Of a stretch of 38,554 nt of DNA, positions 4,572 through 16,252 are shown in pieces. Position 1 is the stretch's first letter. Each line of letters starts with the position of its first letter. The position numbers and the translations under genes are program-made. The notes under the pieces were generated by a model that saw only the letters and a list, made by a program, of their open reading frames with translations, had not been told where the DNA came from and did not search any database. This stretch comes from Rhodospirillales bacterium (GTDB lineage: Bacteria > Pseudomonadota > Alphaproteobacteria > Reyranellales > Reyranellaceae). The DNA lies in the NCBI GenBank assembly GCA_003153415.1, contig PLYQ01000169.1, forward strand, positions 4,500 to 43,053, in the 5' to 3' direction.

Positions 4572-5794
<1,223 letters not shown>

Positions 5795-13735: not shown

Positions 13736-14119
13736 ATGACCCGGTCCCAGTTCTACACCGCCGTCCTGGCGGGAAGCCTTGCCTGCGGTGCGGCCGCGTT
13801 TGCCGCCCCGCCCGTGCCGCCGACGTCGTCGCAAACCCGCGCCGAGACGGCCTGCCAGGACCAAGGCATGCACCCCAATTCACCGGAGCGGGAGCTTTGC
13901 CTCTCCCATGTCACGCGGGCCTTTGACTGGGGCGAGACGAACCTCGCCTATGAGCTCGCCCGGACGACCGGCGAAGCACGCGAGGCCTGCACGGCCTCCG
14001 GCCTCGCGCCCGGCAGCCTGGGCTATCGCACCTGCATCGACGTCGAAGTCGACGCGCGCACCCAGCTCCTGATCCTGGGCGACGACCAGAGCGGCGAGAA
14101 CGTCGCCCGATCGCCGTAG
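13736..14119 (+). CDS. Small secreted Cys-containing protein of unknown function
   Basis: 127 residues with a signal peptide (MTRSQFYTAVLAGSLACG...AFAA, probable cleavage about residue 24). The mature part of about 100 residues has four cysteines (TACQD, ELCLS, EACTA, RTCID), an even number consistent with two disulfides in the periplasm. GTGGAGG lies 6 nt before ATG 13736, which rules out the longer frame from 13406. I recognise no domain. It stands alone between the convergent SRPBCC gene and the divergently transcribed FUSC gene. Confidence 0.8.
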   Translation: MTRSQFYTAVLAGSLACGAAAFAAPPVPPTSSQTRAETACQDQGMHPNSPERELCLSHVTRAFDWGETNLAYELARTTGEAREACTASGLAPGSLGYRTCIDVEVDARTQLLILGDDQSGENVARSP

Positions 14120-14141: not shown

Positions 14142-14672
14142 TCAGCGGGGAATGCGCTTTTCGTATTGCCCGTCGATGGCGCGATGGAGATCCCAGAAGG
14201 CCTGTGGCACCCGGCCATTGGCACGCTCAACCAGGACCATAAGCAAGGCGTGCCAGCCGCCGCTCACATTGACCATTTCATCGCGGCCGGCCAGGCGTCG
14301 ATGCGTCAGAGTGAACAACACCTTGTCTCCTTGCGGCGCCAGTTCGAACACGACCTCCGACGAGGGCGGCCAGGAGAACGCAAATCGCCGCGGCGGATCG
14401 TATTCGGTGATCTCGACGACGAACTCGTGACCGTTGGCGTCGATCTCGCGGTACTTCTCCGGCGGCGGCGCGTTGTGCGGCGACAGGTCCGAATGTTTGA
14501 AGCGCAGCGTCATCTTGCCGCCGACTCGAAGGTCGGTCGGGCCCGACGCAAACCACTCGCCGCGCTTCTTCGCGTTTGTCAGATAGGCCCACACCGTCTC
14601 GATCGGACTGGGCAGCAAGCGCTCGAAGCGCACTTCGGTCGGTGAAATGACGGTGCCGTAGTCGTCGCTCAT
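14142..14672 (-). CDS. SRPBCC/AHSA1-type ligand-binding protein
   Basis: Small cytosolic START-like fold, 176 residues. It opens with VRFERLLPSPIETVWAYLT (strand plus helix of the AHSA1 group), followed by LRVGGKMTLRF, FVVEITEYDPPRRFAFSW, and a C-terminal amphipathic helix with GGWHALLMVL. Such proteins bind hydrophobic ligands, but the ligand is unknown. Its start overlaps the arsR stop by 4 nt (ATGA), so it is coupled to the regulator. The ArsR plus SRPBCC pair is a recurrent two-gene unit in bacteria, and the twin-dyad promoter upstream should control both. Confidence 0.9.
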   Translation of the reverse strand: MSDDYGTVISPTEVRFERLLPSPIETVWAYLTNAKKRGEWFASGPTDLRVGGKMTLRFKHSDLSPHNAPPPEKYREIDANGHEFVVEITEYDPPRRFAFSWPPSSEVVFELAPQGDKVLFTLTHRRLAGRDEMVNVSGGWHALLMVLVERANGRVPQAFWDLHRAIDGQYEKRIPR

Positions 14673-15013
14673 TTGCGGCTCCTTTTCTTGCCGGCGTGGC
14701 GCAACAGCGCAGTTTCAAGGTCGTCGAGGCGGGCCGACCAGAAGCGCTGATAGAAGGCGAGCCATCGATCGGCCTGGGCGAGCGGCCCGGCCTCGATGCG
14801 GCAGCGGTGCGAACGGCCCTCGATGGTGCGGCTGAGCAGCCCCGCCTCCTCCAGCACCTTCACGTGCTTGGCGGCGGCGGCAAACGACATGTCGAAGGGC
14901 TCGGCGAGCTCGCCCACCGTGCGCTCAGCAGCCGCCAGGCGGCGCAGCATGGCGCGGCGGGTCGGATCGGACAGCGCGCCGAATACACGATCGAGGGCTT
15001 CTTGTTCAACCAT
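14669..15013 (-). CDS. ArsR-family winged-helix repressor
   Basis: 114 residues. The helix-turn-helix core begins RVFGALSDPTRRAMLRRLA and includes TVGELAEPFDMSFAAAAKHVKVLEEAGLL, with the recognition helix around residues 45-65 and the wing at SRTIEGRSHRCRIE. No cysteine-rich metal site is visible, so metal sensing is unlikely; the coupled SRPBCC protein suggests an organic signal. ATG 15013 is preferred over an upstream TTG (15049) because the promoter at 15021-15049 would place the transcript start at or next to ATG 15013. No Shine-Dalgarno sequence is present, as in leaderless genes. The ATG sits in the centre of operator 1, implying autorepression. Confidence 0.9.
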   Translation of the reverse strand: MVEQEALDRVFGALSDPTRRAMLRRLAAAERTVGELAEPFDMSFAAAAKHVKVLEEAGLLSRTIEGRSHRCRIEAGPLAQADRWLAFYQRFWSARLDDLETALLRHAGKKRSRK

Positions 15014-15022
15014 ATGGTTGAA
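15005..15022. promoter_or_regulatory. Putative ArsR operator 1
   Basis: TTCAACCATATGGTTGAA is a perfect 18-bp palindrome of the form TTCAAC-N6-GTTGAA. It covers the arsR start codon and overlaps the -10 element. The same half-sites and spacing recur 40 bp away at 15045. Confidence 0.75.
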
Positions 15023-15049
15023 TATAGAAGATGCGCCGGCAACGTTCAA
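15021..15049 (-). promoter_or_regulatory. Promoter of arsR-SRPBCC unit
   Basis: Reading the minus strand, TTGAAC (15049-15044) and TATATT (15026-15021) are separated by exactly 17 nt. The expected start point is about 15014-15013, i.e. on the arsR ATG. The -35 lies in operator 2 and the -10 touches operator 1, so repressor binding would block polymerase. Confidence 0.65.
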
Positions 15050-15062
15050 CCTTTTTGTTGAA
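15045..15062. promoter_or_regulatory. Putative ArsR operator 2
   Basis: TTCAAC-CTTTTT-GTTGAA has the same half-sites and N6 spacing as operator 1, start to start 40 bp, close to four helical turns. It covers the -35 of the arsR promoter and lies 47 bp before the preferred epoxide hydrolase start, so it may also control that divergent gene. Confidence 0.7.
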
Positions 15063-15109
15063 TGACAGCAAGCTTGTCATCGCCCACGAAGCGAGAGACC
15101 TTTGGACTC

Positions 15110-16252
15110 ATGACTGCCTCCATCGGTCCTCTCCCCGCTTCCGTCCTGCCCGCCGGTGTGCGAGCGCGCATTTTGCCTGGCATCAACGGCCTCGACATGC
15201 ACGTCCTCGAAGCCGGTTTCGAGACGCCGGGACGGCCCGCTGTGCTGCTGCTGCACGGCTTTCCCGAGCTCGCCTACAGCTGGCGCAAGGTCATGCCGGC
15301 GCTGGCATCGGCGGGCTATCACGCGATCGCGCCCGACCAGCGCGGCTACGGCCGTACCACCGGCTGGGACGCCGATTACGACGGCGACCTCGCGGGCTTT
15401 CGTTTCATGAATTTGCTGCGCGATGCCATCGGCGTGCTGTTCGCAACCGGTCACCGCTCGGCGGAGGCGGTGGTCGGCCACGATTTCGGCGCCTCGGTCG
15501 CGGCCTACGCCGCCCTGGTGCGGCCCGACATCTTCAAGCGCATGGTGCTGATGAGCGCGCCCTTTGCCGAGCCGCCGTCGGTGCCGTTCGGTGACAGACC
15601 GACAGCGAAAGCGCCGGACATCCATACCGCGCTCGCAGCACTCAGCCGGCCGCGCAAACATTACCAGGGGTACTACTCGACCCGGCCGGCCAACGAGAAC
15701 ATGTGGCATGCCCGCCAGGGCGTGCATGACTTCCTGCGCGCCTATTACCATCACAAGAGCGCCGACTGGAAAGCCAACAAGCCGTTCGAGCTCAACGGCT
15801 GGACGGCCGAAGAACTCGCCAAGCTGCCGACCTATTACATCATGGATCTCGCCGAAGGGATGGCCGAGACCGTGGCCAAGGAGATGCCGTCGGCCGCCGA
15901 AATCGCCGCCAACAAATGGCTGCCTGACCGCGAGCTCAAGGTTTACAGCGACGAATACGCCCGCACCGGCTTCCAGGGCGGCCTCAACTGGTATCGCGTG
16001 CGCATCAGCGGCCGGGTGAGCGGCGAGTTGGAAGTCTTCACCGGCCGCACCATCGACGTGCCGTCGACCTTCATCTCGGGCCGCGGCGACTGGGGCATCT
16101 ACCAGACGCCGGGCGCCATCGAGAAGATGCAGAAGAGTGCCTGCACTCAGATGAAGGCGATCCACCTCATCGAGGGTGCCGGCCATTGGGTGCAACAGGA
16201 GCAGCCGGGTGAGGTGAACCGGCTGCTGATCGATTTTCTCATGCAAACGTGA
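15110..16252 (+). CDS. Epoxide hydrolase (alpha/beta hydrolase fold)
   Basis: Opens epoxides to diols through an alkyl-enzyme ester; about 380 residues. The oxyanion motif LLHGFPELAYSW is near 56-67, DQRGYGRT near 90, and the nucleophile elbow GHDFGASVA has Asp about 124. A lid region holds YYHHKSADW, and the His lies in the C-terminal GAGHWVQQEQP. An Asp nucleophile rather than Ser separates it from esterases. ATG 15110 (MTASIGPLP) is preferred; the in-frame ATG at 15062 overlaps operator 2 and has no ribosome site. Divergent from arsR-SRPBCC, whose repressor probably governs it. It overlaps the convergent LysE gene by 14 nt. Confidence 0.88.
   Translation: MTASIGPLPASVLPAGVRARILPGINGLDMHVLEAGFETPGRPAVLLLHGFPELAYSWRKVMPALASAGYHAIAPDQRGYGRTTGWDADYDGDLAGFRFMNLLRDAIGVLFATGHRSAEAVVGHDFGASVAAYAALVRPDIFKRMVLMSAPFAEPPSVPFGDRPTAKAPDIHTALAALSRPRKHYQGYYSTRPANENMWHARQGVHDFLRAYYHHKSADWKANKPFELNGWTAEELAKLPTYYIMDLAEGMAETVAKEMPSAAEIAANKWLPDRELKVYSDEYARTGFQGGLNWYRVRISGRVSGELEVFTGRTIDVPSTFISGRGDWGIYQTPGAIEKMQKSACTQMKAIHLIEGAGHWVQQEQPGEVNRLLIDFLMQT

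Follow-up and report, generated by a model that had tools for sequence, protein, structure and literature searches.

The arsR-SRPBCC operon of the window (the whole stretch of 38,554 nucleotides that was analysed) is preceded by two dyads of the form TTCAAC-N6-GTTGAA, and this twin-dyad layout is conserved within one ArsR subgroup. From the way in which the dyads share their letters with the promoter boxes and the start codon, we propose that the operon has a leaderless, autoregulated promoter at which ArsR acts as an autorepressor on both dyads, a reading to which we give a probability of about 0.85. The promoter is real, conserved and unusually compact, and it most likely belongs to an autorepressor.

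The arsR gene (14669 to 15013, minus strand) encodes a winged-helix regulator of the ArsR/SmtB type with 114 residues (Pfam HTH_20, 8.2e-14, and HTH_5, 1.3e-08; NCBIfam NF033788). The domain scored above the curated cut-offs, given here in brackets, for PF01022 with 35 bits (22), PF12840 with 51.8 bits (27) and NF033788 with 69.6 bits (55). The end of arsR is overlapped by 4 bp by the start of a gene for an SRPBCC protein of the AHSA1 type (14142 to 14672, minus strand; 176 residues; Pfam AHSA1, 8.3e-15), to which 2k5g is the nearest solved structure by sequence. The proximal operator dyad, TTCAACCATATGGTTGAA, lies at 15005 to 15022 and the distal operator dyad, TTCAACCTTTTTGTTGAA as read on the top strand, at 15045 to 15062; both match without a mismatch and their starts are 40 bp apart. 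The earlier note had called the two operators identical, which holds for their arms but not for the inner six bases, these being CATATG in the proximal and CTTTTT in the distal dyad. The -35 hexamer TTGAAC (15044 to 15049) and the -10 hexamer TATATT (15021 to 15026) stand on the minus strand with a spacer of 17 nt, and both were assigned from a promoter scan together with the relatives described below. Read toward arsR, the right arm of the distal dyad, GTTGAA, forms the -35 box together with the one base that follows it, and the first two bases of the proximal dyad are the last two of the -10 box. The same proximal dyad also takes in the beginning of the gene, where the ATG (15011 to 15013) and the next two codons, GTT GAA (Met-Val-Glu for codons 1 to 3), stop exactly where the dyad stops. 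Since the ATG is only 7 nt past the -10 box, the arsR transcript is very probably leaderless, with its predicted 5′ end at the A of the ATG (15013). No Shine-Dalgarno sequence is found in the 7 nt between the -10 box and the ATG. The earlier note had described the distance of 40 bp, the seating of one dyad on the -35 box and of the other on the -10 edge and start codon with a 17-nt spacer, and a leaderless geometry lacking a Shine-Dalgarno sequence, and these descriptions stand, the 5′ end itself being a prediction.

A consensus scan of 14900 to 15200 on both strands returned TTGAAC/TATATT as the sole promoter-like site, where shuffled sequences lead one to expect 0.1. The assembly to which the window belongs (5,616,185 bases, 88% complete) has no other copy of the exact dyad. 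Base composition predicts approximately 0.05 copies in 5.6 Mb, and the reversed control pattern had no copy in the same 5.6 Mb. A wider regulon is not shown in the window's genome, where sites with up to two mismatches number 110 versus 38 for the reversed pattern, and none of the five sites with one mismatch is of the start-codon type. An in-frame upstream TTG (15049) was rejected as the arsR start because the relatives do not preserve the reading frame there: their spacing shifts in steps of one base, and in-frame stops are present in many of them 18 to 36 nt 5′ of the ATG.

In the mechanism we propose, one ArsR dimer would sit on each dyad, the distal dimer over the -35 box and the proximal dimer over the -10 edge, the transcription start and arsR codons 1 to 3, such that RNA polymerase would be excluded at both promoter contacts while ArsR is bound. 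An effector would then free ArsR from the DNA, allowing sigma-70 polymerase to use TTGAAC/TATATT and to start at the A of the ATG, and the 5′ end of the messenger would be the start codon. Since operator arms, promoter boxes and codons share letters, the sigma-70 spacer (16-18 nt) would fix the distance between the dyads, and for the same reason the operator would dictate the N-terminal Met-Val-Glu of ArsR. On balance we lean towards the further proposal that this 58-bp element fuses operator, promoter and reading frame, with one repressor dimer for each sigma-70 contact, distances limited to sigma-70 spacer values, and Met-Val-Glu retained for the sake of the DNA rather than the protein. If this is true, polymerase would be blocked at both boxes, and a change in the proximal operator would alter the regulator itself. 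The spacing is not universal and differs where the promoter boxes sit differently (46 bp in Tsukamurella and 49 bp in locus L017).

The Rv2035 protein of Mycobacterium tuberculosis carries a polyketide_cyc2 domain, which we take to be of the SRPBCC type (this label being ours and not that of the published work). The gene with this domain overlaps that of Rv2034, an ArsR-type autorepressor that binds a palindrome near its own coding sequence, with footprints running from -30 to +3 and from -26 to +8 (PMC3338718). The pair thus resembles the window in having an ArsR-type gene that overlaps an SRPBCC-type gene and a palindrome at its own start region, as far as the available text of that paper describes them, and it is by analogy with Rv2034 that we infer binding and autorepression by the ArsR of the window. 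However, the Rv2034 palindrome is single and has other letters (CCGTAAGT-N4-ACTTACGG), whereas the window has two dyads, and the text available on Rv2034 mentions no second operator on the -35 box and does not discuss a leaderless start (PMC3338718). In Cupriavidus metallidurans, leaderless messengers are over-represented among transcription genes, one of them an arsR, but the accessible part of the paper does not connect this with an operator containing the start codon (PMC7563307). Autoregulation and footprints have also been reported for Brucella ArsR6, with no motif given in the portion of the text available (PMC8509827). Among open-licence papers in PubMed Central, a published description of the twin-dyad layout was not found, the nearest cases being Rv2034 and Brucella ArsR6. 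The window would offer a clean natural case in which promoter, operator and coding sequence share a single piece of DNA, under a rule open to test (the sigma-70 spacer plus 23 gives the distance between the dyads). It would also offer a route to such regulators by sequence alone, to the prediction of leaderless starts and to the correction of gene starts.

Relatives were sought by a search with the ArsR protein in 61 genomes, the window's own included, in which the best matches were ranked with one per genome. All 22 best matches (56-100% identity, window included) have both dyads with no more than two mismatches in total, the distal dyad having at most one mismatch and the proximal at most two; the spacing is 39 bp in 11 of them and 40 bp in the other 11, and the offset of the ATG is constant, a geometry compatible in all of them with a 5′ end within 5 nt of the start codon. 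The earlier note had set conservation of the dyads in orthologous loci beforehand as its refutation test, and both dyads are present throughout these 22. Between pairs of the 22 sequences the operator arms are 95% identical versus 33% for the DNA between the dyads (TATA omitted). In seven of the 22 (L083 and L088-L093) the left arm of the proximal dyad, which adjoins the -10 box, reads TTAAAC, CTAAAC or TTAAAT instead of TTCAAC. The subgroup was cut by rank and not by identity, and one match of 56% identity, G031:C10, has no twin dyads. Among 21 lower-ranked matches (L101-L108, L142 and L145-L156; 46-56% identical), made up of the next 19 by rank and two more, twin TTCAAC dyads were found in none, and L143 and L144, two more ArsR paralogues that the window's genome encodes, likewise lack them. 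Many of the 21 have instead one different dyad at the start region, for example TTTAAC-N6-GTTAAA. In each of the three arsR paralogues from the window's genome (L142-L144) the start region has only one dyad, of a related kind, and the ATG follows a -10-like box by approximately 7 nt, most clearly in L143 and L144; a -35-like box (by eye TTGACG, TTGACA or TTGCCC) lies further up and outside any dyad. They are therefore like the window in their start-region dyad and leaderless-compatible geometry but unlike it in having only one dyad. Several of L145-L156 resemble this start-region layout. Leaderless start-region operators may thus be common in this regulator group, and judging from these loci it looks as though the start-region operator is the general layout of the group and the second dyad on the -35 box a feature of one subgroup.

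When 84,980 genomes were scanned for pairs of exact dyads, with any distance of 26-56 bp allowed, 76 loci were obtained. Together with the window their spacings are 39 bp (14), 40 bp (35), 41 bp (11), 46 bp (12), 31 bp (2), and 45, 49 and 50 bp (one each), such that 59 of the 76 scan loci fall at 39-41 bp although 26-56 bp was permitted. In all 59 the proximal dyad contains, at a constant offset, the ATG that begins an ArsR-like gene; three of these loci (L029, L039 and L044) run off the available stretch and in L063 the frame is broken, and all four keep the offset. According to their record titles, the 39-41 bp loci come from Alpha-, Beta- and Gammaproteobacteria, one actinobacterial metagenome-assembled genome (MAG; L043) and one UBP7-labelled MAG (L044), bearing in mind that a contig of a MAG may be misplaced. 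The compact layout is kept in bacteria of several classes though the DNA between the dyads is not, and TTCAAC-N5-GGTTGAA would be a single predicted operator for a group of little-studied arsR-SRPBCC operons, mostly of Proteobacteria.

The 17 scan loci outside 39-41 bp comprise seven Tsukamurella ArsR loci (46 bp), the ArsR locus L017 (49 bp), L010, L055 and seven others, and in the latter (L005, L030, L032, L033, L042, L059 and L068) an ArsR match was not found. In the Tsukamurella loci (L014, L040, L046, L065, L070, L072 and L078) the dyads are 46 bp apart and a Shine-Dalgarno sequence follows the proximal dyad; by eye, the space between the dyads contains a possible -10 box (TACCGT in most) at 17 nt from a -35 box in the distal arm. 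Four of the seven (L040, L046, L065 and L070) have no ATG, GTG or TTG in the open frame ahead of the helix-turn-helix, and in all seven an ACG occurs soon past the Shine-Dalgarno sequence; from its position, ACG is a possible start of the Tsukamurella arsR. In L017, which has an ArsR gene with an SRPBCC neighbour, the dyads are 49 bp apart, the proximal dyad is followed 2 nt later by the ATG, and a -35 box TTGACG is seen by eye between the dyads.

For the comparison of spacing and shared letters we pooled 78 rows, being 56 from the scan, in which perfect arms are given by construction, 17 from the protein search, four from a sample of 398 genomes (see below) and the window. Removed as repeats of one place were L001, L002, L079 (the window), L080 (equal to L051), L081 (L007), L084 (L075), L086 (L035), L119 (L085) and L128, the last taken as a repeat by its sequence, which equals that of L056; L109-L116 were also left out, and L029, L039, L044 and L063 are not among the 78. 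Where the distal dyad had been misread as proximal (L045, L051, L098 and L100) that reading was dropped and the true proximal sites of these loci were counted. Taking ungapped ArsR identity below 90% over the first 100 residues left 46 representatives, in which the spacing is 40 bp in 27, 39 bp in 14, 41 bp in four and 46 bp in one. Across the 78 rows it is 39, 40 or 41 bp in 77 and 42 bp in none, and the remaining row is L014 (46 bp, read as TTG), a leadered Tsukamurella locus. Dyad distances of 39, 40 and 41 bp are those that sigma-70 spacers of 16, 17 and 18 would give. In the ArsR tree, in which there are few columns per row and many unresolved forks, the spacing classes need 16 changes by parsimony; class 40 alone needs 14, at least eight of them forced by well-supported branches of this tree of few columns. 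Gain or loss of a single base is thus frequent and yet stays inside the limits of the sigma-70 spacer.

The earlier note had ascribed the spacing to about four helical turns, and one could suppose that the dyads are spaced for cooperative side-by-side binding on one face of the helix, with the fit to the promoter secondary. Distances of 39-41 bp do amount to 3.7-3.9 turns, and cooperativity was inferred by the authors for Rv2034, where both half-sites of the palindrome together bind more strongly, according to the text available (PMC3338718). We consider this explanation quite unlikely, since 39, 40 and 41 bp interchange repeatedly, 42 bp (four turns) is absent and the values match spacers of 16-18. 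Furthermore, Tsukamurella (46 bp) and L017 (49 bp), where the promoter boxes are placed differently, differ in distance, Tsukamurella by approximately half a turn. Helical phasing was accordingly rejected as the cause of the spacing, the observed distances being 39-41 bp, or 46 and 49 bp where the promoter boxes sit differently.

The -35 box is TTGAAN in 36 of the 46 representatives and TTGAC followed by A or T in 10, the scan loci being unable to show TTGAC by construction; the latter form is found in seven of the 22 protein matches and in all four sample rows. The corresponding change of the outermost base from A to C is absent from the other three arms, both in the 46 representatives and in the 22 protein matches. 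By its letters, then, the -35 arm satisfies the -35 consensus at the cost of dyad symmetry. This bears on the alternative that the proximal dyad alone is the true operator, the distal one being weak or auxiliary and conserved mainly through its -35 box. The right distal arm is indeed GTTGAC and not GTTGAA in 10 of the 46 representatives, and the three arsR paralogues from the window's genome do with one start-region dyad and, by eye, a plain TTGACG, TTGACA or TTGCCC further up. However, the left arm of the distal dyad, which lies outside the -35 box, keeps the letters TTCAAC in all but one of the 22 best protein matches, which would be odd for a mere -35 box, and we regard this alternative as unlikely, if the least so of those considered here. 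The -10 box is TATATT in 32 of the 46 representatives, and codon 2 is GTT in all 22 protein matches versus 14 of 222 other Val codons in the 46 representative genes. Because GTT is rare among the other Val codons, GTT GAA at the start is most readily taken to be retained for the sake of the operator. A pyrimidine stands directly 5′ of the ATG in 40 of the 46 representatives and in 18 of the 22 protein matches, and every one of the 77 rows with a spacing of 39-41 bp has ATG as its start codon; both would be expected if the transcript begins at the A of the ATG.

The association of the two dyads with arsR was also seen from the side of the DNA. In 398 sampled genomes of the same phylum, TTCAACNNNATGGTTGAA was found at 26 sites, window included. 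Seven of these sites start an arsR gene, and all seven have a distal dyad at 39-40 bp with at most two mismatches; the other 19 have none (Fisher's test, 1.5e-6 if the sites are independent). Twin dyads also lie between a membrane-protein-like gene and a divergent gene in L010 (near 5561-5624, 46 bp) and L055 (near 1066-1133, 50 bp), with a different ArsR-like gene, named by eye, further down in L010. Since the twin dyads precede other genes in these two loci, the sequence is not exclusive to the ArsR subgroup, and one might propose that a different regulator occupies the dyads while ArsR acts elsewhere. We hold this to be the least probable of the alternatives, given that among the 26 sampled sites of the proximal type the distal dyad occurs only at arsR genes (7 of 7 versus 0 of 19) and that the ArsR paralogues from the window's genome have different dyads of their own at the start region.

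The coupling of arsR to SRPBCC in the earlier note, seen in the window as the 4-bp overlap, extends to the relatives, with an SRPBCC homologue directly after arsR in 69 of the 78 rows. In three of the remaining rows (L014, L043 and L054) Pfam assigns the next gene to the AHSA1 type; a double AHSA1 gene is present in L053, and a long gene resembling it in L071. A PF06983 gene comes first in L006 and L127 with the SRPBCC homologue approximately 0.85 kb on, while in L050 the arsR frame is fused and probably broken, the homologue standing just behind it, and L061 is at an edge.

The divergent neighbour in the window is an epoxide-hydrolase-like alpha/beta hydrolase (15110 to 16252, plus strand; Pfam Abhydrolase_1; epoxide hydrolase structures 4ufo and 5cw2) with an alternative ATG at 15062 that overlaps the distal dyad. 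From it the earlier note had suggested an organic-epoxide signal, and the switch would in that case sense an organic epoxide and co-control the hydrolase. The protein does resemble epoxide hydrolases, and its gene is within 1.5 kb upstream in all 19 rows of the window's clade. In the other 59 rows it was not found (56 without a match, some having less than 1.5 kb available, and three at an edge); one weak alpha/beta-hydrolase match of 29% identity lies approximately 1.8 kb upstream in L011. Even within the clade only five of 19 rows have the start of the hydrolase gene 140 bp or less from the proximal dyad, and in 14 it is more than 300 bp away, and a promoter-like site directed at it was not found in the scan of 14900 to 15200. 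Since the hydrolase is limited to the window's clade (19 of 78 rows, where SRPBCC is nearly everywhere) and mostly lies more than 300 bp off, the epoxide signal is weakly founded and we think it very unlikely. The hydrolase is a neighbour and at most a candidate part of the switch.

SmtB, CadC, CzrA and ArsR are classical metal sensors with an operator over their own promoter. The ArsR of the window is like them in its winged-helix family and in the operator over its promoter, but unlike them it has, by eye, no cysteine pair or histidine site of their alpha-3 or alpha-5 kind, and its partner is an SRPBCC gene and not an efflux pump or reductase. Such efflux or reductase genes of a classical metal ars operon are absent, the neighbours being the SRPBCC and epoxide-hydrolase-like genes. 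An effector other than a metal is plausible from the sequence, which has one cysteine and, by eye, no such metal site. For Rv2034, zinc and six other metal ions failed to relieve binding or repression, in the text available (PMC3338718). The only cysteine of the ArsR in the window, Cys71, is in the wing and is present in 75 of the 78 aligned rows; it could possibly serve as a redox or electrophile sensor, or be structural. By eye, Cys71 is also present in 10 of the 11 printed ArsR paralogues. The window further encodes, at 13736-14119, a protein of 127 residues with no Pfam or NCBIfam match at E 0.001, and relatives of this protein occur near arsR-SRPBCC in many loci of the window's clade.
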